Virus record (IMG/VR): IMGVR_UViG_3300030746_000043 | Span: 1 to 24,425 of that record | Direction: 5' to 3' (one strand) | DNA: 24,425 nucleotides | Source: a virus | Shown: positions 2,291-24,425 of the stretch, piece by piece | Layout of the letters: every line of letters starts with the position of its first letter | Numbering within the stretch: position 1 is the first letter of the stretch | The notes under the pieces: generated by a model | The model's input: only the letters and a program-made list of their open reading frames with translations | Told to the model about the DNA's origin: nothing | Databases searched by the model: none | Translations under genes and position numbers: made by a program

Positions 2291-4441
2291 ATGGATAGAC
2301 CGGAATATACGACTGATAGTCCCAAAGCTCAAAAGTTACGACAACATGTCAAAAGATGGCGTGATGCGTGGCGCGAAAATGATAAGCATTACCATTACAT
2401 GATGAGTTTTGTCATGGGCGATCAATGGGATCAGGACGAATTAGATAATTTTACGAAACGTAACAAGCAAGGTCTGACATTCAACAAGCTTGCGCCACTC
2501 GCTAACTATGTGATGGGGCAGCAACAACAAAATACTCCCAGCTTAAAATTAGAGGCAACTGATGATACGCCTCAGCCAGTAGTTGCTATTCGTCAAGCCA
2601 TCGTATTAGATATCCTATTAAATTCTGATGCGAAATCCATTACCCAGAATTCATTTTTTCAAAAAACAGTAGGTGGTTATGGTGCTTATCGTGTAGGTAC
2701 GGATTATGATAATGATTATAATTTTGATCAAGTAATGAAATTATATGACTTTGTTGACCCTACTAAATGCTTTTGGTCTTTAGACTGTGAACACAAAAAC
2801 AAAATTGACAGCATGATTTCTGGCTATACCGTCAAGATGAGCCGCAAGAAAGTGCGCGCTTTGTGGGGTAGAGAAGTTGAATCAAATATTGGTATAGATC
2901 AGCAAGACAACGGCGCGAATGTATCAGTTGATGATCAGACGGATATGCCGTTAGAATTTTGGGATGATGAATCAGTTACGATTCTTTATGTGTATGAACG
3001 AAAATATAAGCCTTTTACGCTATGTGAATTATCCAACGGGAAAGCTTTACCTAAAAAAGAAGTGGATGCCTTACCTACATTTGAAGTCGATGGTAAAGAG
3101 TTTATTGATTACAATGGCGAACCTGTCAGAGTAGTGCGAACCCGAAAAGTATCGCGCTATAAGGTAGTAAATTCAATTTGGGCAGGTGATTATAAGATCG
3201 ATGAGGTGCCATTTCATAGTCAATACTCTCCTATCATTTTTGAAGATCAGCGTTCTTACTATGATAAGAAAGGGCGCCAGATTACACGCTCATTTTTTGC
3301 CAATGCAAAGGATGCGCAACGTTATTTAAACTATATCAAAACGCAAAATGCTTATCTCCTAACTGTATTTCGCTATGATCAATTCCTTATATCGAAAGAG
3401 AATGCGCGTGGCACTGATACTAAGCAAATATGGGCTGACCCGACTGTCATTTTAGGCGCGCTCTATTATGATGAAGCCAAGTCTGGCAATATTCCACAGC
3501 AATTAAAACCACCGGAAATATCACAGTCTTTGATGCAGCAATATGATAGTACGCTGAATGATTTATCTTCTAGTACTGGAATATATGGCACGCAGTTAGG
3601 CCAAGGCGGTCAAGAAGTCTCTGGCGACGCAATAGATTCACGGCGCGAGACCGCTAGTTATAATACTCAAACACTATTCACTTCATCAAATCAAGCCTTG
3701 TGGGCTTGTGGCCTGATAGTAGATGATGCCATACCCCGTATTTATGATACTGAGCGCAAACTACGATTAAATATGCCAGACACGGGCGAGCAAACCATTA
3801 CTATTAATAAACAAGGCGATGAGTACGGCGAAAACTTTGAAAATGATATTACCAAAGGGCGTTATAAATTACGGTTATTGCCCGGTAAATCTGTAGAAGG
3901 CCAAAAGCGGGAAGATCAAGAAACTATCGAGCTTATCCTACAAAAGAATCCTGAAACATTTAATCTGGTAGCTGACTTATTTATCGAAACACTGGAAAAC
4001 TCGAAGTCTATTGAAATTAGAAACCGCCTGCGAGCCGCCCTAGTACCACCTGAGATTATTGAAGCAGGTAAGACTGGCAAACCGATACCACCCAAAGACC
4101 CACCTCCAAATCCTGAATTATTAAAAATCCAGCTTGAGATGATGAAAGCGCAACAAGATTTTACATTAGGTCAGCAAAAACTCATGCAAGAGCAGCACAA
4201 GATCGAGTCTCAGTCTCGCAAAGACGGTACTGATGCTGCCATTCAGTTAGGTCAATTACACCAACAAAGTGCTGAGCTTGAAGCGCGCTATGTGGAAACT
4301 GAGAAGAAACTACAGGCAGAGTTTGCCCGTATTCACGCCGATACCACACAAGGCCACCATGATAATTTAGCCAAGATTCTCACTCACAACACAGGCTTTT
4401 TGGACAAACCCAAAGAGGCTAAACCAACTTCTAAAAAATAG
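2291..4441 (+). CDS. P22-like portal protein
   Basis: A 716-residue protein following the large terminase, close in size to the P22 portal (725 residues). It forms the dodecameric ring at the head vertex through which DNA enters and leaves. The N-terminus (residues 15-80) has the portal-like stretch with W.DAWREN, FVMGDQWD and FNKLAPLANYVMGQQ, followed by the mixed alpha/beta wing and stem region. Around residue 420 the segment SSSTGIYGTQLGQGGQEVSG resembles the conserved stem/clip area. The last 120 residues are rich in Gln, Lys and Glu and form a long predicted helix, as in the P22 portal barrel. A ribosome binding site (GGAAGGGTTAAG) precedes the ATG. The scaffold gene follows after 12 bases. 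Confidence 0.88.
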   Translation: MDRPEYTTDSPKAQKLRQHVKRWRDAWRENDKHYHYMMSFVMGDQWDQDELDNFTKRNKQGLTFNKLAPLANYVMGQQQQNTPSLKLEATDDTPQPVVAIRQAIVLDILLNSDAKSITQNSFFQKTVGGYGAYRVGTDYDNDYNFDQVMKLYDFVDPTKCFWSLDCEHKNKIDSMISGYTVKMSRKKVRALWGREVESNIGIDQQDNGANVSVDDQTDMPLEFWDDESVTILYVYERKYKPFTLCELSNGKALPKKEVDALPTFEVDGKEFIDYNGEPVRVVRTRKVSRYKVVNSIWAGDYKIDEVPFHSQYSPIIFEDQRSYYDKKGRQITRSFFANAKDAQRYLNYIKTQNAYLLTVFRYDQFLISKENARGTDTKQIWADPTVILGALYYDEAKSGNIPQQLKPPEISQSLMQQYDSTLNDLSSSTGIYGTQLGQGGQEVSGDAIDSRRETASYNTQTLFTSSNQALWACGLIVDDAIPRIYDTERKLRLNMPDTGEQTITINKQGDEYGENFENDITKGRYKLRLLPGKSVEGQKREDQETIELILQKNPETFNLVADLFIETLENSKSIEIRNRLRAALVPPEIIEAGKTGKPIPPKDPPPNPELLKIQLEMMKAQQDFTLGQQKLMQEQHKIESQSRKDGTDAAIQLGQLHQQSAELEARYVETEKKLQAEFARIHADTTQGHHDNLAKILTHNTGFLDKPKEAKPTSKK

Positions 4442-4453
4442 AGTTAACCATTT

Positions 4454-5494
4454 ATGCCAAAAGTATTACAAAAGATTGACGATAATGATTTAGCGAATGA
4501 ATTGGGTACGGTACCCACTGGCGAGGATATGATTGCATCCAGTGAAGATGGTGATACACCAGCAGAACAGAGCAAATCGACTAAAAATACGCGCACCGGG
4601 TTGCGTGGTGCATTGAAAAAGTCTGTTTTACACACGCCACAACCGCGCCAGAATGCCGATGATTATGGATATGACGATAAAGGCAACAAAGAACCCGATG
4701 AAGAAGTAGACCCAACCGATATTATTGACAATAAAGACCCGGATGATGATGAAGAACCCGATAACACAGATCAAGCTGCCAAAATTGATGAATATGGCAA
4801 TGAAATAGTTCCAAAAGAAGAAAAGATGTACCCCGAATCAGAGGTCAATAAGATGATTCGTGAGCGTTTGGCTCGCGGCAATCATGGTCAAGCACCTACA
4901 GCGGCAGAAGTCGCCAAGGTAACGGAACAAGTCACACAAACTATGGATTCTGATTCAACTGAGGCTGATTGGGAGCGCGAACTAAGCAAAGTCGTTGATA
5001 AGATTGTAACGAACAAGTTGCAAGCTAAAGAACAAGAGCGAGTTCAATCACAACGTCAAGCCGATGAGGCAAAATGGCGTGAACAAGAAAGCCGTGTGCA
5101 GGCAGAATTTGAAGAAAAGTTTACAACAGGCATGGACAGGTATTCAGACTTTAAAACCGTGGTAAGTGATAAGCCCATTACGGATGCTATCATGGTGGGT
5201 ATTCGTGGAATGCCAAACCCGGCAGCGTTTTTATATGCAGCGTGTAAGCAACAACCCAAAGAAATAGAACGCATTGCTGGCATTCAGGATTTCCCTACAC
5301 AAATGCTGGAATTGGGCAGACTGGATGAAAAAATTCGTAAAGCGAACAATGTGACCAAATCAAGTAGACCACTATCTAATCATAAAGGTGATGTTAGTGA
5401 TAAATTTGACGAATTACCAAAATTTGATGTAGACAGTGCCATTGAGAAAGATGCCCGTGTTAAACTAAATCAACGTCAAGGCAAGCGGCGTTAA
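4454..5494 (+). CDS. Capsid scaffolding protein
   Basis: A 346-residue, highly charged protein between portal and coat, the standard position of the scaffold that directs coat assembly and then leaves the prohead. Residues 1-125 are acidic and probably disordered (runs such as DPDDDEEPDNTD). Residues about 150-235 form a Glu/Gln/Arg-rich coiled coil. The C-terminal part (about 225-300) carries the fold seen in podovirus scaffolds, with DRYSDFKTVV, GMPNPAAFLYAACKQQPKEI and LELGRLDEKI. P22 scaffold is 303 residues, so this one is slightly long. The basic tail (KLNQRQGKRR) resembles the coat-binding end of P22 scaffold. No protease domain is visible, so release without cleavage is likely. Confidence 0.75.
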   Translation: MPKVLQKIDDNDLANELGTVPTGEDMIASSEDGDTPAEQSKSTKNTRTGLRGALKKSVLHTPQPRQNADDYGYDDKGNKEPDEEVDPTDIIDNKDPDDDEEPDNTDQAAKIDEYGNEIVPKEEKMYPESEVNKMIRERLARGNHGQAPTAAEVAKVTEQVTQTMDSDSTEADWERELSKVVDKIVTNKLQAKEQERVQSQRQADEAKWREQESRVQAEFEEKFTTGMDRYSDFKTVVSDKPITDAIMVGIRGMPNPAAFLYAACKQQPKEIERIAGIQDFPTQMLELGRLDEKIRKANNVTKSSRPLSNHKGDVSDKFDELPKFDVDSAIEKDARVKLNQRQGKRR

Positions 5495-10277: not shown

Positions 10278-10913
10278 ATGGCAGGAGCAGCAGCAGGATT
10301 AGCAGGATTAGCCGCTTATCCCTTTGGTACAAAAGCCATTGATAGCTTTTTGCATCCTGAAAAAGCCTTTCAAGCGGCAGAAGATCAATCCCAAAAATAC
10401 TATGTTGATGCGCAAGGGAAGTTACAGCCGATTGTGAATAATGGCATCAGCCAGTTTCAACGGTTGAATGGTCAAGCCGATGCGCTAGGTAATCCCGTAC
10501 AGCTTGAAAATCAGTGGAATCAGGCGTACACACAATCCCCGCAAGCCGCACAAGCCATTGCTTCTGCCAAAGCCACAGGGCTTGATTCTGCCGCCAGCCA
10601 AGGGCTTTTAGGCAGTAGTGCGGCTCTTGAAAATATTCAAAAGTCAGCCGCAAACATTGGTCAAAATGATCGTCAAAACTATTTGAATGACCTCATGCAA
10701 AAATATTTAGCCAGTGTGGGTATAGGTCAAAATCTCTATGGTGTCGGAGCAAATGCTGCGGGGCAGCAAAGCACGAATGCGGTGAATCAAGGTAATACAC
10801 AAGCAGGACTTGCTTATGGCGAACAAAAAGCACCCGGCGATATTCTAGGTAATATTCTAGGTAAAGCTGCCAATGCTGGTATTAACTATGCAACAGGTGG
10901 AGTAATGAAATAA
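10278..10913 (+). CDS. Ejection (DNA transfer) protein, small
   Basis: A 211-residue Ala/Gly/Gln/Asn-rich protein in the position of the P22 gp7/gp20/gp16 ejection proteins, which leave the virion with the DNA and help it cross the envelope. Residues 1-20 (MAGAAAGLAGLAAYPFGTKA) are hydrophobic and glycine-rich. Residues about 25-150 are helical with Gln/Ala repeats, including AASQGLLGSSAALENIQKSA and NDRQNYLNDLMQKYLASVG, a stretch frequent in internal virion proteins of short-tailed phages. The C-terminus is Gly/Asn-rich (NAGINYATGGVMK). The stop codon overlaps the next ATG by one base (TAATG), implying translational coupling. Assignment is by composition and order. Confidence 0.6.
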   Translation: MAGAAAGLAGLAAYPFGTKAIDSFLHPEKAFQAAEDQSQKYYVDAQGKLQPIVNNGISQFQRLNGQADALGNPVQLENQWNQAYTQSPQAAQAIASAKATGLDSAASQGLLGSSAALENIQKSAANIGQNDRQNYLNDLMQKYLASVGIGQNLYGVGANAAGQQSTNAVNQGNTQAGLAYGEQKAPGDILGNILGKAANAGINYATGGVMK

Positions 10914-12424
10914 TGGCAGCCTCAGGAACAGGAATACCATTATCAGGTGGCACGGGAATGGATGCCTTTGACCAAGGCTTTAAGACCATGCAGAGTGCGA
11001 TTGATTCGATTCGTCAAAATCAATATCGTACAGGTACGCTCGCAGTCGCACAGCAAGAATTACAGCAAAAGCAAACTATGCTACCTGCAATGCTGCAAAA
11101 GTATGCTGATGAACATGAATTAAATCCTTATCAAAGAGATTTATTAAAAGCTCAAGCCAATGAAGCGGTAGCGCGCGCTAATAAAGAAGGTGCAAGTTCG
11201 GGTATTTTAAATGAATTTATGAAGTCACTTCATGATGGTACGCCTAGTAATCAAAATCCTACACCAAAAGTCGAAAACACCGGCGAAGGAAATTATGGAA
11301 TTAAAGACTCTAATAAAGCACATTTTGGTAATCCTAATGCCACTCAAGGCGGCGATGAAGGTTTAATCAATGTAAATGCTCAAGGTGGTATAATTGACCC
11401 GCGCGCTCAAGAGCACCCACCCATAAATGCAGCACAGGCCAACGCGCCAAGTGCTAATCCAATGAATATGCCTAATAATCCTGACACTATTCAGAATTCC
11501 AGTTTAATGCCAGATAATGAAGCGCAGCAAAATCCTGATGATAATGCACCTGCATTACCTCCAAGAATTGCAAATGCCGCATCGCAACAATTAACAAATC
11601 CTAACGCGCAAGCCGCGCCAAATGGACAAACTGGACAAATACAGGATAATCAACAATTAACACAGGAAAAGAAATATCCCACTAAAATTGGTGAAACGGT
11701 GGTTATTCAAAAACCTATTCGAAGTACAAAATGGGATAATTTTCCTAAAATGGAAGGTTTGCCAGATTTTACACCTAAGAAAGAAACTATTGCCGATGGC
11801 GTAGTCAGAACTACGTATCCCGGCAGTGGCATGATTACTTTGACCAAAGAAGCTCCGAGTTTTGAAGAAAAACAAGAAATAGCCCAAAAGAACCGTAGTG
11901 ACCTTGCTTATCAGCAAGAAAAAGCGCGTGCCGATTTACAAGATGAAAGACAATCAAAGCAAGAACATCAACAAGCTTTAAAAGAAGGTGACAAAATTGT
12001 AGCTGAAACACGGCCTATTGTTGATACCATTGATTTATTGAAAAGAGCTATAAAAATACAGGAAGATAATCCTAATTCTACAGGTTGGGTGAAAGGGGCA
12101 GAAGGTAGAACAGGGCTGTCTCAAGATAAAGCTACCTCTGCTTTAAATGAAATATTCGGAAAAATTCAAGCTGCTACGGCACATTTAGGCGGTAGGCAAG
12201 GTGGTGTTGGTACGTTGAATTGGGCGGATAGGATTAAAGCGTCAACATTTAAATCCCCAGAATGGAATTTAGCAAATCTTAGAGAAGGATTAGCAGAAGC
12301 TGAGAATCAGGTTGCTACCCGGAAAGACCTTTATGAAACCCGCACCAAAGAAAAATTCCCTTTGGGTAGTAGTGGTAAACATTTTGTAGTAAATCCTAAA
12401 ACGGGTTTATTAGAGGAAAAATAG
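10913..12424 (+). CDS. Ejection (DNA transfer) protein with disordered centre
   Basis: A 503-residue protein in the second ejection-protein slot. Residues 15-90 are helical (FKTMQSAIDSIRQNQYRTG, then a Gln-rich helix). Residues about 100-260 are dominated by Asn, Pro, Gln and Ala and look disordered (for example NAPSANPMNMPNNPDTIQNS). After about 320 a charged coiled coil begins, ending in a helical domain with RAIKIQEDNPNSTGWVKGAE and AATAHLGGRQGGVGTLNWAD. That C-terminal region is a common feature of phage proteins of this kind. It is coupled to the previous gene by TAATG and followed after one base by the next. The role is inferred from gene order and composition; no enzymatic motif is visible. 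Confidence 0.55.
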   Translation: MAASGTGIPLSGGTGMDAFDQGFKTMQSAIDSIRQNQYRTGTLAVAQQELQQKQTMLPAMLQKYADEHELNPYQRDLLKAQANEAVARANKEGASSGILNEFMKSLHDGTPSNQNPTPKVENTGEGNYGIKDSNKAHFGNPNATQGGDEGLINVNAQGGIIDPRAQEHPPINAAQANAPSANPMNMPNNPDTIQNSSLMPDNEAQQNPDDNAPALPPRIANAASQQLTNPNAQAAPNGQTGQIQDNQQLTQEKKYPTKIGETVVIQKPIRSTKWDNFPKMEGLPDFTPKKETIADGVVRTTYPGSGMITLTKEAPSFEEKQEIAQKNRSDLAYQQEKARADLQDERQSKQEHQQALKEGDKIVAETRPIVDTIDLLKRAIKIQEDNPNSTGWVKGAEGRTGLSQDKATSALNEIFGKIQAATAHLGGRQGGVGTLNWADRIKASTFKSPEWNLANLREGLAEAENQVATRKDLYETRTKEKFPLGSSGKHFVVNPKTGLLEEK

Positions 12425-12425
12425 A

Positions 12426-14606
12426 ATGCCTCATACGGTCACACTTCCTAATAATGATACGGCTGAATTTCCTGATAATTGGTCACAGGAACAAATTCAA
12501 GCTTCTATTGATAAACACTTAGGGATTGATAGAAGTACTCAACCAACAATCAATACAAATGCACCAAACCAAGGTGGAGTAAGTGGTGATTTTCGTTCAG
12601 GATGGGATAAAACTAAAGATGCTACTAGAATTGCTACAAATGATTTACTTTCTTTACCCGGTAAAGCGAATGATTTAGCAAATAAGGTAGTGAATGCTGC
12701 GCCTTCTGAAATCTCAGGTGCATTAATGGGTGGGAACATACGTGGCGCAGCAAATGTTGCTGTCGGTTTAGGAGAAATAGGGAGAGCTATTACAAATATT
12801 CCCAATACTGCCGAGGAATATTTGAAACACTTACGCCTATTACCAGAAGATCATAAAGATCGTATGCCACATTTTGAAACCTTTGGAGGGGAAAATGCGG
12901 TTAAAGAATTACTAGGTAAGTCTCAGCCGGGGGATGCTTTATTGCAAAATGCTATTCCTTTAGTTGGTGCAGGAAAGTTATTAAGTATTCCCATAAAAGC
13001 GGGCAAGAAAGTTATTGATAATCAACTTCTCGGCACAGATAAAAATGCTGCTTTACGAGATAAATTTCAGATTCCTATTCTGCAACAACAAGCCAAAACG
13101 AGTGCGGAAGAATATGAAAAAGCGAAGTCAGAACACGATATTGCAGTAAAAAATGCAAAGCAGGGTATTAGAGGTGCTGACCCTGATTTATTATTAAATG
13201 AGATGAATGCCAAAAAAGAAAGAGCAGAGCAGCTAGCGCGTGATGCCCAAGGTCTTGAGCATCAAATTAATAATGTCCCTTCTACGACTGATAAAACGCA
13301 TATTGAAGATGCTGCTAAAGCGACTATGGCACGACAAGAGGCCGAAAAAGGCATTGATACGGCGCAAGCAGTACATGAATCGACAAAACAGACTGTTAAA
13401 GATACGGAAAATAAAATTTCCACGTTGTTAAATCGTGGCAAAGAGCATGATGTAGAGGCAGCGAGTCAAATTGAAGCTGCACAAGAGGAACGTCATAGTG
13501 CCATTACACAAAAATATAAAACGGTTGAAAAAAATTTAGTGGGAAAAGAGATTCCTCAAGATCACGCCGAAGCAATAAAAAGCAAATATGCTGAATTAAA
13601 TGGCATTATCAAATCTGGTGGAATGCAATCAAAGGAAGCGCGCCAAATTGGTGTTGATATTGATAACCTTGAAAAAAACAAGAATATGACCGCCAATGAA
13701 GCCGTTGGCAAGCTTCAATCCGTCAAGCAATACGCTAGAGAAGCGCGTCAAAAAGCCTATGAACCCGGTATGAATCGTGAAGAACGAGATGAATGGAAAG
13801 CGCGATATAATGAATTAGATGATAAAGTTGATGAGCTTAGTAAAACTCTGGAAGATAATATTCCGGCGGAAGATGCTGTACTATTAAAGGAAGCTAACAA
13901 AGGTTGGCGTAACGAAGTCGTACCACTACAGAAAAATACTATCTATCAACGTATTCGCCATTATGGTCAAATGCCTGACAATATCATGAAGTCACTTCGT
14001 GGTAAGAATAAAGGAAATGTCATTCTTCGTAATATTATCCAAGGCGACCCTGAGATTGTTAAAAATGTTTTAGGACAACGTTATCGAACCCCGGCAGGCA
14101 AACAAGAAATTCACGAAGCGGCTACCTCAGGTGACGCTAGAACAAATAGTTATATTGATAAACTACCCGAATTAAAACCATTGCTTGATCATCGTGAAGC
14201 AGTAAACCAAGCGGTCGATGTCACTAAAAAACATATTGAAGATGCAACTCGCGCTTATGAAAAAGCCCGTGATTTTGAAAAAGAAGCTAAACAAAATGCG
14301 ACCTCCACATCTAACCAACATGTTCAATATGATAGAGAACGAGATAAATTACAGAGAAAACTTACTGATCATTATGATGAAGTCAAAGCTCTGCAAAAAC
14401 GCGCTCTTGAATTAGAAAAACAAATACCCGGCTTGCAGAAAGCGGCAATGCGCAAAAACCAAACATTAGCCCAGAAAAAAGCGGCTATGCAGGCACTTAA
14501 AGATGCAAAAAATGAGTACAAAGAAGCAAGTTATCGGCTACCATATGTAGGTAATATGATGAAAAAAGCCGTCATTAAAAGTTTAAAAACAATGAAGGGA
14601 TTCTGA
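12426..14606 (+). CDS. Ejection-type protein with long coiled coils
   Basis: A 726-residue protein, the largest of the three ejection candidates. It opens with the short module MPHTVTLPNNDTAEFPDNWS and EQIQASIDKHLG, an N-terminal piece often found at the front of phage internal virion proteins. Residues about 95-125 (GALMGGNIRGAANVAVGLG) and 170-190 (LLQNAIPLVGAGKLLSIPI) are glycine-rich and hydrophobic and could insert into membranes. From about 215 to 500 and from 590 to 705 the chain is almost continuous charged helix with coiled-coil character. I see no lysozyme or transglycosylase motif, so it probably acts as a structural conduit component. The stop overlaps the next ATG (TGATG). Confidence 0.5.
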   Translation: MPHTVTLPNNDTAEFPDNWSQEQIQASIDKHLGIDRSTQPTINTNAPNQGGVSGDFRSGWDKTKDATRIATNDLLSLPGKANDLANKVVNAAPSEISGALMGGNIRGAANVAVGLGEIGRAITNIPNTAEEYLKHLRLLPEDHKDRMPHFETFGGENAVKELLGKSQPGDALLQNAIPLVGAGKLLSIPIKAGKKVIDNQLLGTDKNAALRDKFQIPILQQQAKTSAEEYEKAKSEHDIAVKNAKQGIRGADPDLLLNEMNAKKERAEQLARDAQGLEHQINNVPSTTDKTHIEDAAKATMARQEAEKGIDTAQAVHESTKQTVKDTENKISTLLNRGKEHDVEAASQIEAAQEERHSAITQKYKTVEKNLVGKEIPQDHAEAIKSKYAELNGIIKSGGMQSKEARQIGVDIDNLEKNKNMTANEAVGKLQSVKQYAREARQKAYEPGMNREERDEWKARYNELDDKVDELSKTLEDNIPAEDAVLLKEANKGWRNEVVPLQKNTIYQRIRHYGQMPDNIMKSLRGKNKGNVILRNIIQGDPEIVKNVLGQRYRTPAGKQEIHEAATSGDARTNSYIDKLPELKPLLDHREAVNQAVDVTKKHIEDATRAYEKARDFEKEAKQNATSTSNQHVQYDRERDKLQRKLTDHYDEVKALQKRALELEKQIPGLQKAAMRKNQTLAQKKAAMQALKDAKNEYKEASYRLPYVGNMMKKAVIKSLKTMKGF

Positions 14607-16693
14607 TGCCAAATTATGTTCGCGGTGCAAGTCCTATCTGGTATTTCCCCAATGTAGTTGGCATGCAGCTTGATGATACGTATTGGGCTTTTTTCCTGAC
14701 GAATGACCTACCTTATTTGCCCCAAGCGGTTTATCAAGATTTCCAAGCCTTGACTGTGTGGGCGAATGCCAAGGTTCAATTTCAGCCGGACGGCACATTA
14801 CCCAATAACATCTTTTTTACTGAAGGGTTACCTTACCGTATTGAAATACGTAAAGGATTCACGCAACAAAGCCCTTTAATACGGCTAATTGAAAACTACA
14901 TTGCGGGTGAAAGCAGTGATGAGCCTGTGGATGATGCAGCTTCTAGTTTAGAAAACCAATTTACCAATTCACAGTTTAGCCAAGTCTATTTTACGACACC
15001 AAATGTTATTACGGTGGCTGGAACATACAATATCGCGCCCGGTTGGTTTTTAGATTTAGTGGGTACAGGTACACCTACCTGTACGCTATCGCAATTAAAT
15101 TTTTCTGGCATAGATGGTAATGAAATACCGAATTACCCCCCCACAGGTCTTGAGGTTAATGCTACAGGATGGTCTAGTGTTACTTTGCGCCAGCGATTAA
15201 AAAACAATGGTGCGCTATGGACGGGTAAATTCGTAGCTATATCCGTGACAGGACAATCGGGAAATGTTCCGCAAAATATTCAAGTGCTTTATATTCCTAA
15301 TTCACCGGGTTTACCTCAAACATTGTTACAAGGTACATTAACACCGGCTAGTTTTACCACCTTAGCCAATCCTACGTTAATTAGTATTCCATCTTCTAAT
15401 ACGACGGATGCTAATGCTAATCCTCCTCCTTTTATTGATATAGCTTTTCAACTGCCAGCAACAGGTATTGTTCAGTTAACCAATTTCCAATTAACGGCTG
15501 ATGCCAATGGTATTGTTCCTCTCTATCAGCAAGAAACGACAGAGCGCACGATTGATCATGAATTTAATGTTTATCGAAATTCCATTATTATTCAGCCAAA
15601 AAACTCTTTGCTAGCGGGTTGGAATTTTAGGCAAAATCCTTATCAATTTATTAATACATCAGCGACAGTAACATTAACTCCTACTCCTGTTTATGTGGCT
15701 GATCAAACAATTGCATCCTTTAGTGATAGTGGAAATGCAGTATTAAATATTACTCCTGGAAGTAGTACCATTCCTTTTGGTTGGTTGCAAATTACCGCAT
15801 TGAATAATACTGTCGGGCAATTAATGATATTACAATATATTGATGGCGCAACTATCCGCGGATGGTGGGATTTTTTTGTATCTGTATTAGTGCGAGCGCG
15901 ACTTATCAATACCTCTGGCACTTCCAATATTAAATTAAAATGTGTTTTATTTACTTGTAATGCTATTCCCGCTATTCTTAGTGCAGGCGATCCTATTACT
16001 GGATTTAATGCCGTGGGTGATCCTGTTTTTGCTCCGGCTTATACTGCCAGAACCCCTATGAGCAATACAGCTTTTCAAAATTCTCCTGCGTACCCATTAC
16101 AAAATAATTTTGACCCCTTTGAGGCGGGAAATGTTTGTCCTGCTATGGCATTCAATAAAATTAATTTAGGTATTATTCCTAGTAGTGTGTCTTTTGCTAC
16201 CTTGGGAGTCATGCTTTATACGGTGGGCAATTTAACATTGGGGGATTCTATTTTGTTGCAATCAGCAGCACTCGTACCCAATGAATTTGCTATTGATGAT
16301 TCACCAAAAACATTTGATGAAGTCTTGCGTCAATGCCAATACTACTATGAAAAATCTTATGATGTCCTTTCTCTGCCGGGAACAGTCACGCTTCTTAATG
16401 CACCTACTTGTCAATTATCCTCGACGGTGGCAGAAGGATATGGATTGGATAGACCATTTAAAGTAACAAAAAGATCAGCCAGTGGAAGCGTTCCTACTGT
16501 GACATGGTATTCCACCTTAGATGGTTCCATTAATAATATTTCATTTGGCAACCCACCTGCTTCTAATGATGTTGTTTTATCTACTTCATATAACGGAACG
16601 AATTCTACGGGTATTCCAACTTTTACGACTCCTTTGGGAATTGGTATTGTGTTATCAGCACAATGGACAGCAGACGCACGTTTAGGTGTGTAA
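14606..16693 (+). CDS. Tail fibre-like virion protein (695 aa)
   Basis: Residues 1-110 form a recognisable N-terminal module of phage fibre-like proteins, with NYVRGASPIWYF, FFLTNDLPYLPQAVYQD, FQPDGTLPNNIFF and YRIEIRKG, probably the virion-attachment part. The middle is beta-rich, made of Thr/Asn/Pro-rich repeats that look like carbohydrate-binding or fibre shaft domains. Residues about 565-590 contain the CQYYYEKSYD segment that recurs in phage tail-fibre C-terminal domains. No endoglycosidase or pectate-lyase ladder is obvious, so it looks like a binding fibre rather than a tailspike enzyme. Overlap with the previous gene (TGATG) suggests coupled translation. It is the best candidate here for the primary receptor-binding fibre. 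Confidence 0.6.
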   Translation: MPNYVRGASPIWYFPNVVGMQLDDTYWAFFLTNDLPYLPQAVYQDFQALTVWANAKVQFQPDGTLPNNIFFTEGLPYRIEIRKGFTQQSPLIRLIENYIAGESSDEPVDDAASSLENQFTNSQFSQVYFTTPNVITVAGTYNIAPGWFLDLVGTGTPTCTLSQLNFSGIDGNEIPNYPPTGLEVNATGWSSVTLRQRLKNNGALWTGKFVAISVTGQSGNVPQNIQVLYIPNSPGLPQTLLQGTLTPASFTTLANPTLISIPSSNTTDANANPPPFIDIAFQLPATGIVQLTNFQLTADANGIVPLYQQETTERTIDHEFNVYRNSIIIQPKNSLLAGWNFRQNPYQFINTSATVTLTPTPVYVADQTIASFSDSGNAVLNITPGSSTIPFGWLQITALNNTVGQLMILQYIDGATIRGWWDFFVSVLVRARLINTSGTSNIKLKCVLFTCNAIPAILSAGDPITGFNAVGDPVFAPAYTARTPMSNTAFQNSPAYPLQNNFDPFEAGNVCPAMAFNKINLGIIPSSVSFATLGVMLYTVGNLTLGDSILLQSAALVPNEFAIDDSPKTFDEVLRQCQYYYEKSYDVLSLPGTVTLLNAPTCQLSSTVAEGYGLDRPFKVTKRSASGSVPTVTWYSTLDGSINNISFGNPPASNDVVLSTSYNGTNSTGIPTFTTPLGIGIVLSAQWTADARLGV
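15063..15084 (+). repeat. Perfect 9-base inverted repeat inside the fibre gene
   Basis: GTACAGGTA (15063-15071) and TACCTGTAC (15076-15084) are perfect reverse complements around a CACC loop. It lies in frame in the 695-residue gene and has no T-run, so it is not a terminator. It may be chance from the GTG-T coding pattern. Confidence 0.35.
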
Positions 16694-18116: not shown

Positions 18117-19637
18117 ATGGCAACCAACAATAATATTAATAATAATACTGACCTCCGTTTGAATACAATGGTGGGGATTAATGCTGGTAATACATCTATC
18201 ACCGGAGCCGCCAACGTTGCAGTTGGTTCCAATGCTTTAAATGGACTAACTACTGGCACTAATAATGTGGCCATTGGTTATAATGGGTTAACTTCATTAC
18301 TGACAGGAAGCCAAAATAGTGGAGTAGGATATAACTTTGCGCCCGCACTACTCTCTGGCAGTTCCAATATTTTCTTTGGATGGGGAGCGGGAAGTTCCTA
18401 TACGAATGCCGAAAGTAGCAATATATTAGTGAATAATGCTGGGGTTGTAGGTGAAAATAATACCCTTCGTATCAGTGTTACTGGAACAGGTTCCCAACAG
18501 ATTAGCAGGGCATTTATAGGTGGTATTTATAATGTCGCCCCAAGTGGTACTTATCAGTTTTCTTTGATAGGTAGTAACGATCAGGTTTTTGGAAGTATGA
18601 CAGCCCCATCAGGAGGCACTTATCCATCAGCTACTTTCAGTGGTACTCAGTCGGAAACTGGTTGGACAGTACAAACCCCCACTACTGGATTTTCAATTAC
18701 CTTAAGCGGCTCTGTCCATTGGACACCGTTAAATCCAGCAGGAACACTTGCTAGTGGCACAATTACGATGCCAACTGGGGTTGCTAATTTACGTTGTCTA
18801 GTTTCAACTACTCAAGCTATTACATCACTTACTGTAAATCCAGACGCAGGACATAGTATTTTAGGTGCGCCAAATTACCTCGCGGCTGGTTCATCATTTG
18901 AAATGATTTATGATGCTGCGATAACAACATGGTTGCCCTATGCTAGCGCTGGCAATAGCCCGGGTCGTTTATTGAATATTCAGGCTTTTGAAACCGCAGG
19001 TACTTTCACCTATACGCCGACTCATGGTATGGGTTCCATTGTTTATGATATGAGTGGTGCTGGCGGTGGCTCAGGTGGCGCTGCGGCCACCACAGGCTCT
19101 TGGAATGCTACAGCAGGTGGTGGGGGTGGTAATCGCATTACAGGTAAATTAACCGCCGCACAAGTAGGTACAACCGCTTCATTGATTATAGGAACTGGTG
19201 GAACAGCAGGTGCTGCCGGTAATAATAACGGTGGGAATGGGGGGGCAACTATATTTTCACCTGCCTCGGGTAGTATTGTTGCGAATGGAGGAATGGGTAG
19301 TTTGGGTTCTGCTGTTTATGCAGGTCCCGGGTTTAACTTTCTTCCTCCCGCAGCCGGTGGTGCAGTATCTGGTACTACGTCGGGAACTATTTATTCCAAT
19401 CAAGGTGGTCAATCAGGCGGAATTGCATTGCAAGGTGGTTCGACTGCGGCAGGATATAGTGGATTTGGTGGTAATTCCAATTATGGCGCGGGTGGAGCGC
19501 CACTAGCCGGAGGGGCGGGAGCAGGAAATGCAGCAACAGGTAACGGTTCAGGAGGGGGTGGCTGTGTGGCAATCTCATCTAATGAAGCAGGAGCGCCGGG
19601 TGCTTCCGGTTGGATGTTTATTTATGAATATGAATAA
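18117..19637 (+). CDS. Adhesin-like fibre with 17-residue repeats and glycine-rich tip
   Basis: A 506-residue protein. Residues about 33-92 contain four repeats of exactly 17 residues, beginning NVAVG (33), NVAIG (50), NSGVG (67) and NIFFG (84), with a TTGTN/TGSQ turn. This resembles the head repeats of trimeric YadA-like adhesins. Residues about 140-285 are a beta domain. From about 290 (RLLNIQAFETAGTFTYTPTH) begins a glycine-rich domain with runs such as GAGGGSGG and AGGGGGN, ending in GWMFIYEYE. Comparable glycine-rich tips form distal receptor-binding parts of some phage fibres. It is the last gene of the rightward late block and probably a host-range determinant; binding is inferred. Confidence 0.65.
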   Translation: MATNNNINNNTDLRLNTMVGINAGNTSITGAANVAVGSNALNGLTTGTNNVAIGYNGLTSLLTGSQNSGVGYNFAPALLSGSSNIFFGWGAGSSYTNAESSNILVNNAGVVGENNTLRISVTGTGSQQISRAFIGGIYNVAPSGTYQFSLIGSNDQVFGSMTAPSGGTYPSATFSGTQSETGWTVQTPTTGFSITLSGSVHWTPLNPAGTLASGTITMPTGVANLRCLVSTTQAITSLTVNPDAGHSILGAPNYLAAGSSFEMIYDAAITTWLPYASAGNSPGRLLNIQAFETAGTFTYTPTHGMGSIVYDMSGAGGGSGGAAATTGSWNATAGGGGGNRITGKLTAAQVGTTASLIIGTGGTAGAAGNNNGGNGGATIFSPASGSIVANGGMGSLGSAVYAGPGFNFLPPAAGGAVSGTTSGTIYSNQGGQSGGIALQGGSTAAGYSGFGGNSNYGAGGAPLAGGAGAGNAATGNGSGGGGCVAISSNEAGAPGASGWMFIYEYE

Positions 19638-20632: not shown

Positions 20633-21214
20633 TTATTTAGTGCGCCAATTGGTAGGGGAAACGCCTAGAAAAATGGTAGTCGCCGCCGCCGCAACCGCTA
20701 TAGACGCGTTCACGCCAAGAGCATTGATAGTATCGCCCACTGCTGGGAAAACATTAAGGCTATTAGCAGAAGTATTAGTAACAGTAACTGATTGACCGGC
20801 GACATTGGCGGGAAGAATAACTGAATCTCCCGTAGTTACTACAGTGGATACTGTATTAAAGCCGGGGGTTAATGGAGTTGCCCCGGTTTGGCCGCCGCCA
20901 GCTAAAGCAGTTAAGCCGTCATTGATTGATTGCCCCATCGGCTCAAGTGAAGTGAAATCTTGGGATATCTGAAACCAATAATTAACACCACCTAGCGTAT
21001 TACCATCCGCATCTTGTGTACCACCCACATTAATCAACACATTATCGGTTTGTAACCACTGGAACGCGCCATTATTAGCGGCTTCAATATTGGTTTCTTG
21101 TGCAGTGATATATCCGGGTGCAGAGACTTCGCCAATGGTGTCGGGAGAAGTTGCAGTGATTGAAACTATACCGGGGTTTTCGCTCCATGCGCGATTAATC
21201 GAGATTATTGGCAC
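20633..21214 (-). CDS. Virion-like beta-rich protein on the opposite strand (193 aa)
   Basis: The lead gene of the leftward cluster, starting at GTG 21214 with AAGGAG about 10 bases upstream. Residues 1-60 (INRAWSENPGIVSITATSPD, then APGYITAQETNIE) resemble the N-terminal strand domain of small phage structural proteins. Residues about 115-193 carry a common phage beta module: DSVILPANVAGQSVTVTNTS, NSLNVFPAVGDTINALG and a final SPTNWRTK. It contains a Gly/Thr-rich linker in the middle. These features suggest a virion-surface or head decoration protein. Its orientation, opposite to all other virion genes here, is unusual and hints at separate regulation or acquisition as a cassette. Confidence 0.6.
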   Translation of the reverse strand: MPIISINRAWSENPGIVSITATSPDTIGEVSAPGYITAQETNIEAANNGAFQWLQTDNVLINVGGTQDADGNTLGGVNYWFQISQDFTSLEPMGQSINDGLTALAGGGQTGATPLTPGFNTVSTVVTTGDSVILPANVAGQSVTVTNTSANSLNVFPAVGDTINALGVNASIAVAAAATTIFLGVSPTNWRTK

Positions 21215-22246: not shown

Positions 22247-22819
22247 TTATAGTACACGCTGATAGGCATTGTATAGTTGTTCGTGGAAATCTGGCAGTTT
22301 TTGCAGGCATTGTAAAAGAATTTCACAATCGGCTAAGGCTCTGTGCGCCCCCTCATAATCAACGCCGTAATCTCTGGCAATATCCCGAAGTTTAAGACCT
22401 GAACTATTCCAGTAGAAGTTTGACTTGGTGCAGAGCCATTTTATATGTAAGCTTCTTTCTCTTAAAAATTCATTAGCTTCAATGAATTTCCTATCAAAAG
22501 GGGCATTATGGGCTATTACGATATCAGAATCTGCTAACAATAAATTTATTAAACCTAAAAAAGTTTCTTGTAGAACAGGATTAATTTTTTTGCAGGATTC
22601 AATGTCGATATTATTGATATGCGCTACAGGGTTAAATTCAGCATAAAGCAATCCTGCACCTTTGAATAAAACTGACTGAGTAGGAACGTTATACTGAATG
22701 ACACCAATTTCTAACAACGAATGAAGCCGGGAGTCTAAACCCCCGGTTTCTGTATCCAGTATCAGAATGTTTTCAATTTCACTTTTGCTTTCCGCTAAAG
22801 GCTTTCTTTCGGTGTTCAT
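22247..22819 (-). CDS. DnaQ-like DEDDh 3'-5' exonuclease
   Basis: A 190-residue exonuclease of the DnaQ superfamily with the three exonuclease motifs intact. Motif I is ILDTETGG with Asp22 and Glu24; motif II is IVIAHNAPFDRKF with Asp109; motif III is GAHRALADCE with His159 and Asp164, making it the DEDDh type. The length fits a free-standing domain with no polymerase fused. It starts inside the end of the preceding gene (41-base overlap), but AAGGA about 7 bases upstream of this ATG supports the start. It ends the leftward recombination/replication operon and may proofread, trim ends or repair phage DNA. Confidence 0.9.
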   Translation of the reverse strand: MNTERKPLAESKSEIENILILDTETGGLDSRLHSLLEIGVIQYNVPTQSVLFKGAGLLYAEFNPVAHINNIDIESCKKINPVLQETFLGLINLLLADSDIVIAHNAPFDRKFIEANEFLRERSLHIKWLCTKSNFYWNSSGLKLRDIARDYGVDYEGAHRALADCEILLQCLQKLPDFHEQLYNAYQRVL

Positions 22820-23894
22820 ATAATTCCTTGAGTTGTTCCTGTAAATTTTCAGGACATTCTCTTATAAGATCAGCCGCAATGTAAAGCGCATCTAGTGTAT
22901 TTGCGCTTAATATTTGCTTTTTAATGTCTTTAAAGGCTTGAGGAAGGGCGTTTTGTTCCTCCTCTAATAGCTTTTCAGCTTGTTGCTCGTCAGCTATTTC
23001 GGCTTTGGTGGTTTCAATAGCTGCTGCAATAGTTTCAGCTTTCGCCGCTTTACCATTGGCTTTCTTGGCCTCTAAAATCGCTTTAACGCTATCGGCAGCT
23101 TGCGTGTTTTCGCCCATATCGAAAAATTGCTCGCGGGAGGCCATACCATCTTTAAGCGATTTATAGATGGCACCAAGGTCGATAACTTCCTCAACAATTG
23201 TAGCTTCCATTTTATGCTTCAATCGTTTTTCCAGTTCCGGTATTCCAATACCAAACTCAGCAAAGAGAGTAACCATTTTTCGAATACGATCAGCCAGGGG
23301 TTCTTTGGAACTTTTTAGGGTCTTATTGCATTGCTCCTCGGCAGCTTCTCGTATATCGCCGGGGATGACAGCAAAGATGCAGGCACGTTTGCGGCGCGCC
23401 CCCATGTTAGCAATAAGTTCATAGATATCTCGCTCACTGGTAAGCATCTTTGCGCCTTTCTTGGTATCGACAATATGGTTAACGGTAAAGATTTTTTCAT
23501 CCTCCGCGCCAGTTTGTTTGTCAATGGCATAGGCTTTGGCCACTGAAAAGCCCTGACTACGGCTTATTTCAATCACCCCTGTTTTGATATGCCCCCAATT
23601 CTGCGCCAATACCTCGGCTAGTCGGATACTTGCCCCACGAACCATTGTGCCGCCTTTGGGATAGGCATAGAACGCCATTTCCGCTAAATGGATACGCTGG
23701 CATGAAGTCATAATATTAGCGAATGACTGATTCACGTTACGTGGAAAGCGTTGCGCCACAATGAAAGGAGCTTGCGCCTCGGCTATGGCGCGTGATTGTT
23801 CAATCTGAACTAATTCAGATGGCAACGCATTGGCTGGCAGTGTTTCAAAGCCATAATCACTAGCAACAGATAATTCTTGTCGTGGGTCACTCAT
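22779..23894 (-). CDS. Candidate single-strand annealing recombinase, unassigned family
   Basis: A 371-residue protein three bases downstream of a RecE-like nuclease. In phages that position is normally held by the annealing partner of an exonuclease, such as RecT with RecE. The core (about 45-195) shows PRNVNQSFANIMTSCQRIHL, AEMAFYAYPKGGTMVRGASI, RLAEVLAQNWGHIKTGV, ERDIYELIANMGARRKRACI and FAVIPGDIREAAEEQC. I recall this core from many phage proteins of unknown function. It lacks the signatures I know for RecT, Bet, Erf and Rad52-like proteins. The C-terminal part (about 225-265) has an IPELEKRL and LGAIYKSLKDG segment of the type seen near the ends of annealing proteins. Annealing function is inferred from context. 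Confidence 0.6.
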   Translation of the reverse strand: MSDPRQELSVASDYGFETLPANALPSELVQIEQSRAIAEAQAPFIVAQRFPRNVNQSFANIMTSCQRIHLAEMAFYAYPKGGTMVRGASIRLAEVLAQNWGHIKTGVIEISRSQGFSVAKAYAIDKQTGAEDEKIFTVNHIVDTKKGAKMLTSERDIYELIANMGARRKRACIFAVIPGDIREAAEEQCNKTLKSSKEPLADRIRKMVTLFAEFGIGIPELEKRLKHKMEATIVEEVIDLGAIYKSLKDGMASREQFFDMGENTQAADSVKAILEAKKANGKAAKAETIAAAIETTKAEIADEQQAEKLLEEEQNALPQAFKDIKKQILSANTLDALYIAADLIRECPENLQEQLKELYEHRKKAFSGKQK

Positions 23895-23897
23895 GTT

Positions 23898-24425
23898 TTA
23901 TACTCCGGGTTTAGCCCAAGCGGGCACTGAAATTGTGTTGGTAGGATAGGCAGGCCATAAATTTTTACTCATGCACTGCTTGATACCGATAAGGGCTTCT
24001 TTAAATTCATTGTTACCCTGCTTTAAGGCGGCTTCATCAATGGGATAAGGCACTGAGCAAAAGGGAGGTTCTTTCTCTATCGGTAAGTCAATAAAATGGC
24101 GCATATCAATCCCAATTGACTTAAGCCCTAGATGAATCATTGCCATTTGAATGTGATAACCTTCGTTATAGAAATCACGTTGAAAGGAATGAAAACTTGC
24201 ATCCTTTGTGGTCTTTAAATCAACTATGAAATTATCGTGCCAAATATCAGGACGGCATTTGCATAGTAAGCCCGTGTCCTCATCTACCCAATAAATCGAC
24301 TTCTCATAGCGCGCCCCTTCAATCAATTCACGGGTTTCCTCGTCAGCTAAAAGAGATTTGTGCATCAGCTTTAACTCATCTAAATCGGATTTTGAGATAG
24401 CCGTTTTTCCAAGGGCGAAGGCTTT
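23898..24425 (-). CDS. RecE-like 5'-3' exonuclease, 5' end outside the window
   Basis: The gene is open to the right edge: 20 codons upstream of the first ATG at 24365 remain in frame (KAFALGKTAISKSDLDELKL), so the true start lies beyond 24425. The visible part has the PD-(D/E)XK nuclease core of the exonuclease VIII/RecE C-terminal domain: CRPDIWHDN with the first Asp, FIVDLKTTKDA with the Asp-x-Lys pair, then YNEGYHIQMAMI, matching the family's YHVQ helix with its Gln. This is a metal-dependent enzyme that resects double-stranded ends to leave 3' single strands for annealing. It leads the leftward operon with the annealing candidate and DnaQ-like exonuclease. It is partial, but its active site is complete. 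Confidence 0.85.
   Translation of the reverse strand, partial: KAFALGKTAISKSDLDELKLMHKSLLADEETRELIEGARYEKSIYWVDEDTGLLCKCRPDIWHDNFIVDLKTTKDASFHSFQRDFYNEGYHIQMAMIHLGLKSIGIDMRHFIDLPIEKEPPFCSVPYPIDEAALKQGNNEFKEALIGIKQCMSKNLWPAYPTNTISVPAWAKPGV

Follow-up and report, generated by a model that had tools for sequence, protein, structure and literature searches.

A phage gene adjoining a RecE-like exonuclease represents a probable separate family of RAD52-fold single-strand annealing proteins

The window analyzed here is a 24,425-nucleotide stretch of viral DNA (IMG/VR record IMGVR_UViG_3300030746_000043, positions 1 to 24,425). ORF calling on this window confirmed the 371-residue protein that an initial annotation had singled out as a possible single-strand annealing protein (SSAP) and placed its ATG-started gene of 371 codons on the minus strand (22779-23894). 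The ORF begins 3 nt (AAC) past the stop codon of a PD-(D/E)XK protein gene on the same strand (23898-24425), which profile searches identify as a RecE-like exonuclease (DUF3799, E 7.9e-23; PHROG exonuclease VIII, E 8.8e-48). The adjacency and identity of this nuclease thus stand as first described, but it is not intact in the window, which holds the C-terminal 175 aa because the 5' part of the gene runs past the window end. In the sibling contig IMGVR_UViG_3300028776_000029 (39,254 bp), the SSAP is identical and the exonuclease is complete (2604-3494, 297 aa; DUF3799, E 8.5e-31).

Downstream of the SSAP ORF, a minus-strand gene for a DnaQ-like DEDDh 3'-5' exonuclease (22247-22819; RNase_T, E 6.9e-9; PHROG 192, E 4e-27) overlaps it by 41 nt at its start. 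At six other loci of the family, a PolB-type 3'-5' exonuclease (PF10108) directly follows the SSAP gene, which suggests that a 3'-5' exonuclease is a recurrent third component of the cassette. The remaining window is mostly a plus-strand head/packaging module (terminase, portal, coat, Hc3); the SSAP cassette is therefore part of an oppositely oriented DNA-metabolism module. Large ORFs (346, 503, 726, and 695 aa) at 4454-5494 and 10913-16693, in the region from the head genes to 17 kb, have no or marginal PHROG matches; their products may act in scaffolding, in ejection, or in the tail. Two Gly/Asn-rich proteins, of 506 aa (18117-19637, plus strand) and 193 aa (20633-21214, minus strand; no match in the PHROG search), read like fiber or appendage proteins from their composition.

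Searches of Pfam and NCBIfam with the 371-residue protein matched no family, and its sole family match was PHROG 3657, of "unknown function" (E 9.5e-89, residues 23-286). Hits to CVNH, spectrin, and hemagglutinin in Pfam, NCBIfam, and PDB sequence searches were at chance level and judged meaningless. The same PHROG is matched by all 111 aligned relatives, and our literature search found no paper naming it. A pattern search of genome contigs with the single protein returned nothing, and the wide search for relatives was run with a 6-sequence alignment as the query. It located family members encoded in at least 537 viral stretches and 202 bacterial/archaeal genome stretches, in addition to the homologues in 84 phage records and 8 plasmid-collection records charted by tblastn. 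With homologues this numerous in phage records and viral contigs, the ORF is far beyond chance. Relatives come from Firmicutes, Proteobacteria, Planctomycetes, Verrucomicrobia, and bins labelled archaeal, and from actinophages as well (tblastn). One of them, "Dulem virus 31" (PP511318.1), is labelled Microviridae, yet it measures 35.8 kb and encodes a CI repressor, a replisome organizer, and a putative exonuclease, so that its taxonomy line looks wrong.

The core that had looked conserved in the single sequence proved to be so across the family. Of the columns in the 111-sequence alignment, 26 are invariant, each lying within the core, and both motifs quoted in the initial annotation are present, with K/R80, G87, I90, R91, and E94 of the first and R155, Y158, E159, A162, N163, R167, R168, and R170 of the second at or near 100%. 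Positions 80 (K/R), 91, 155, 167, 168, and 170 (R) are basic in 111 of 111 sequences, and N163 is invariant.

Linkage to a nuclease is likewise a family trait. In 135 of 170 distinct loci, the family gene has a same-strand gene for a PD-(D/E)XK-type nuclease no more than 300 nt away, and in 150 the distance is at most 2 kb, so that homologues sit overwhelmingly beside an exonuclease rather than away from one. As a control, a distance of 300 nt or less to the nuclease was seen for 89 of 520 (17%) other ORFs of at least 120 aa in these loci. Lactamase_B_2 and/or DUF1351 genes are adjacent in 6 further loci, and the 14 without a recognized partner in range include 6 with a PolB-type 3'-5' exonuclease. 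Partners within 300 nt are of the DUF3799 (92), YqaJ (35), Lactamase_B_2 (6), DUF1351 (5), PDDEXK_1 (4), and DUF2800 (3) types. The nuclease gene precedes the SSAP gene in many proteobacterial and actinobacterial phages and follows it in Firmicutes phages. That the pairing recurs with several nuclease types and in more than one gene order is better explained by function than by descent of a single operon from a common ancestor.

Some loci contain additional genes. Four 90-kb phages (of Enterobacter, Yersinia, Aeromonas, and Pseudomonas) carry an AAA/RecF-like ATPase gene between the RecE-like exonuclease and SSAP genes, often followed by genes for small HTH and HU-like DNA-binding proteins in a conserved larger cassette. 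In Bordetella phage PY223 and a metagenomic contig, a PD-(D/E)XK nuclease gene lies upstream and an SbcC-like ATPase gene directly downstream of the SSAP gene.

The AlphaFold2 model obtained with the 111-sequence alignment has a mean pLDDT of 87.6, with values of about 97 over most of residues 40-250, and for a second member (Paenibacillus brasilensis, 47% identical), modeling of the core gave the same elements (pLDDT 92.4, pTM 0.84). Residues 27-262 (23109-23816; this and the following features on the minus strand) form the conserved core, with the predicted fold of the superfamily that includes the human repair protein RAD52. Its elements are, in order, α1 (residues 54-73) and the β1-β2 hairpin (residues 75-88, strands 75-80 and 83-88; 23631-23672), which contains YPKGGTMVRG. 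K80, at a position that is always basic (K/R), closes the first strand just ahead of the turn. Helix α2 (residues 90-100; 23595-23627), with the invariant R91, is followed by the three-stranded sheet β3-β5 (residues 103-139, strands 103-113, 116-125, and 131-139; 23478-23588), a small hairpin (141-150), and helix α3 (residues 154-176; 23367-23435). The latter bears the invariant R155, N163, R167, R168, and R170, which are predicted to contact the ssDNA backbone by analogy with RAD52 and RecT (PMC9772228). Beyond α3, the chain continues as helices to about residue 250, then as a long helix (267-315), and closes with three tail helices (319-369). The RAD52 SSAP fold consists of five elements, i.e., α1, a β-hairpin, α2, a three-stranded antiparallel sheet, and α3 across the sheet (PMC9870868), and by element order all five are present, in this succession, in both modeled members.

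Structural comparisons lean toward this assignment. For the first, full-length model, VIA returned RAD52 as the top core match (Z 6.4); the best 12 core rows were RAD52, Mgm101, Sak, and Gp77, followed by Redbeta (4.7), and RecT scored 4.0. Over the two models, Z was 5.9-6.5 for RAD52, up to 5.7 for Mgm101, up to 5.4 for Sak, and 4.7-4.8 for Redbeta, moderate scores that stay below the level of 8 from which VIA matches are safe on their own. For the second model, RAD52 reached Z 6.5, likewise below that level, with 1kn0 superposed at 4.8 Å over 125 aa, and the best 9 entries were RAD52 or Mgm101. This superposition, although its Z is below 8, is better than that of Listeria RecT (LiRecT), an accepted member of the superfamily, which aligns to RAD52 at 5.5 Å over 83 residues and does not have RAD52 among its top DALI hits (PMC9772228). 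Foldseek against predicted viral structures ranked members of the family highest (E down to 1.6e-23), ahead of proteins named SSAP, ERF, Rad52/59/22, or RecT (E 1e-4 to 1e-2). Against the PDB, Foldseek gave no match with E <0.001, and RAD52 was absent among the best 50; the poor matches to JHP933, porphobilinogen deaminase, and relaxases (mostly rmsd 8-20 Å, E >0.001) are evidence neither way. LptE lipoproteins, which VIA matched to the second model (Z up to 5.4), were rejected for their lower Z, shorter aligned stretch, and lack of sense in this neighborhood. Neither Foldseek nor VIA thus yielded a confident match to an unrelated enzyme.

The predicted fold places the conserved basic residues where a DNA groove would be expected. 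In RecT, the DNA groove has α2 and α3 as its floor and the β1-β2 hairpin as one wall; LiRecT contacts DNA through K101 at the hairpin tip, K111 of α2, and K206/R210/N211 of α3, and these α3 contacts are equivalent to T148/K152/R153 of RAD52 (PMC9772228). The invariant basic residues on the hairpin, α2, and α3 of the family mirror LiRecT K101/K111/K206/R210 and RAD52 K152/R153/R156. N163-R167-R168 has the spacing of RAD52 T148-K152-R153, and since the register of the superposition is uncertain by about one helical turn for the α3 arginines and RAD52 K152/R153, the α3 residues are hypothetical equivalents.

Unlike the core, the C-terminal tail is variable, ranging from 18 to 232 aa across the family. 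That of the 371-residue protein, a three-helix module (residues 319-369; 22788-22940, minus strand; pLDDT about 95), was found in four relatives only and gave no useful match in phage records when searched alone; it is a possible partner-binding tail. In three actinophage members, the C-terminal part (about residues 240-370) is shared with PHROG 4171 RecT-like proteins, the match being limited to the tail (residues 238-370) and leaving the core uncovered. One or two other members weakly match PHROG 2780 (RecT-like) or 7011 (Gp2.5-like). Tails therefore seem exchangeable between families.

These similarities bear on the reading that the protein is a very divergent RecT/Redbeta member rather than part of a separate family, which we regard as improbable. 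Its partner nucleases are the same as those of RecT, the neighbors of RecT/Redbeta in Firmicutes including DUF3799, YqaJ, DUF1351, and Lactamase_B_2 (PMC8093625); actinophage records use the name RecT-like, and a few members have the tail in common with PHROG 4171 proteins. However, a match confined to the tail does not make the core a RecT, and VIA ranks RAD52 above Redbeta and RecT last of the three. Neither the protein nor its relatives matched the Pfam models of RecT (PF03837), ERF (PF04404), Rad52_Rad22 (PF04098), or SSAP_Sak (PF06378, Sak3), in keeping with the earlier remark that motifs of RecT, Bet, Erf, and Rad52-like proteins are missing; AAA_24 and other ATPase models, covering the Sak4/RecA-like P-loop class, did not match the protein either. 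The profile-profile comparison proposed in the initial annotation, run with hhalign, gave probabilities of 0.7% for RecT, 0.5% for Redbeta, 0.1% for Erf, and 0.1% for 80alpha Sak, versus 97.8% for RecT against Redbeta as a positive control in the same set-up, the negatives against Sak and Redbeta being weak because their profiles are shallow (3 and 12 distinct sequences, respectively). RecT against Sak or Erf, and Erf against Sak, likewise fail in this set-up, so that hhalign separates the family from each of these no more than it separates them from one another. The lack of a profile link to RecT, Redbeta, Sak, and Erf argues for a separate family within the RAD52 superfamily.

An ssDNA-binding or nuclease-regulating accessory, e.g., a loader, a processivity clamp, or an SSB substitute, that does not anneal is less probable still, and we consider it very unlikely. 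Such a role would suit the obligate-looking pairing with a nuclease, and the predicted RAD52-like groove would imply ssDNA binding but not necessarily annealing. However, genes for RecT, ERF, Rad52, or SSAP_Sak were found over the cut-off in none of the 18 phage, plasmid, or viral records carrying the family, and AAA_24 gave weak generic P-loop matches only; the annealing role would thus stay unfilled in these elements if the protein were merely an accessory. As RecT or ERF can occur elsewhere in host bacterial genomes, this exclusion applies to the mobile element and not to the whole cell. Moreover, partners that share no common fold (PD-(D/E)XK and metallo-β-lactamase) are more readily reconciled with a shared SSAP than with a subunit dedicated to the nuclease. 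An unrelated function, e.g., an enzyme whose neighborhood and RAD52 resemblance mislead, would accord with the VIA Z scores below 8 and the Foldseek PDB result, but it is exceedingly improbable given that independent SSAP families (RAD52, Mgm101, Sak, Gp77, Redbeta, RecT) converge as core matches and that no catalytic-looking acidic/His cluster stands out among the invariant residues, many being basic and located on the groove elements.

We therefore favor the view that the gene specifies the annealing partner in a phage recombination system of two components, and that its product belongs to a separate family of RAD52-fold SSAPs; pairing with an exonuclease and the predicted fold make this very probable, with annealing activity as its inferred part. 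The observed basis comprises gene order, partner swapping, the absence of other SSAPs, the predicted fold, and conservation. Counting against this view are the missing profile link to the core of any known SSAP family, the VIA and Foldseek PDB scores, the uncertain α3 register, and the 14 loci with no recognized partner in range. RecE-type exonucleases resect DNA in the 5'-3' direction. By analogy, the RecE-like exonuclease encoded next to the SSAP would resect a linear dsDNA end 5'-3' and leave a 3' single strand. We infer that the 371-residue protein binds DNA, oligomerizes, and anneals: it would load on the 3' strand and hold its backbone in the basic groove, with α2 and α3 (R91, N163, R167, R168, R170) as the putative floor and the β1-β2 hairpin with K80 as the wall. 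The bases of the bound strand could then be paired with a complementary strand, with RecA-independent end joining, concatemer formation, or genome exchange as the expected outcome and handover of the annealed product to replication. The overlapping 3'-5' exonuclease may trim the joints. The C-terminal helical module, to which the long helix leads, probably serves as a docking site for the exonuclease, host SSB, or a different partner, much like the tail of Redbeta.

At the family level, the data likely describe a distinct and hitherto uncharacterized group of RAD52-superfamily SSAPs in phages and prophages of Firmicutes, Proteobacteria, Actinobacteria, Planctomycetes, Verrucomicrobia, and probably others. 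At least four nuclease/partner types and tails swapped with RecT-like proteins suggest a modular system in which recombination exchanges nuclease, annealing core, and tail independently of one another. The proposal of a distinct, poorly characterized family agrees with the position of the protein outside known SSAP profiles and within PHROG 3657 only. The second adjective needs qualification, for actinophage members in GenBank carry the label "RecT-like ssDNA binding protein"; the family has thus been partly noticed before, under the RecT-like names given by actinophage annotators.

SSAPs are drivers of phage mosaicism and working parts of recombineering, and they are sensed by several anti-phage systems. 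If our reading is true, the family supplies the "missing" recombinase of many phages and an added bridge between RAD52-like and phage SSAPs, and it offers untapped annealing proteins for editing bacteria that are poorly served by Redbeta/RecT. It also predicts that hundreds of "hypothetical proteins" encoded beside RecE/YqaJ nucleases are annealing proteins. The family escapes Pfam, NCBIfam, and, judging by its seven named families, the Firmicutes SSAP census (PMC8093625).

Among known systems, RAD52, Mgm101, and Sak resemble the family in predicted core fold, element order, and α3 basic residues, and they are its best structural matches. It differs from them in its own motifs, YPRGGxxVxGPSIRLAE and RDIYExxANxGARRxRACI, in its variable C-terminal tails, and in the lack of a sequence-profile match. 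With RecT/Redbeta (PF03837), it shares its genomic role, partners (RecE/DUF3799, YqaJ, DUF1351, and Lactamase_B_2), and swappable tails in a few members, whereas core profile similarity is lacking, the fold match is weaker than to RAD52, and the two do not co-occur in the 18 records. Erf (PF04404) is placed in the RAD52 superfamily by predicted structures, and Erf proteins are among the Foldseek viral matches, but no profile match links them to the family. P22 Erf, for its part, acts together with different helper proteins (Abc, Arf). Homologues that already bear a name occur in Mycobacterium abscessus prophages and Gordonia phages (e.g., prophiGD05-2 gp13 and Mutzi gp54; 27% and 32% overall identity, respectively), likewise encoded directly after a RecE-like exonuclease, whose "RecT-like ssDNA binding protein" label is annotation only; they are not RecT by core profile and differ from the 371-residue protein in their C-terminal tail. 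A structural screen has reported 3,143 unannotated SSAP-like proteins (PMC11783212), a set that could include the PHROG 3657 family. The 371-residue protein is a clear member of this PHROG, which carries no functional annotation and for which a function is now proposed.
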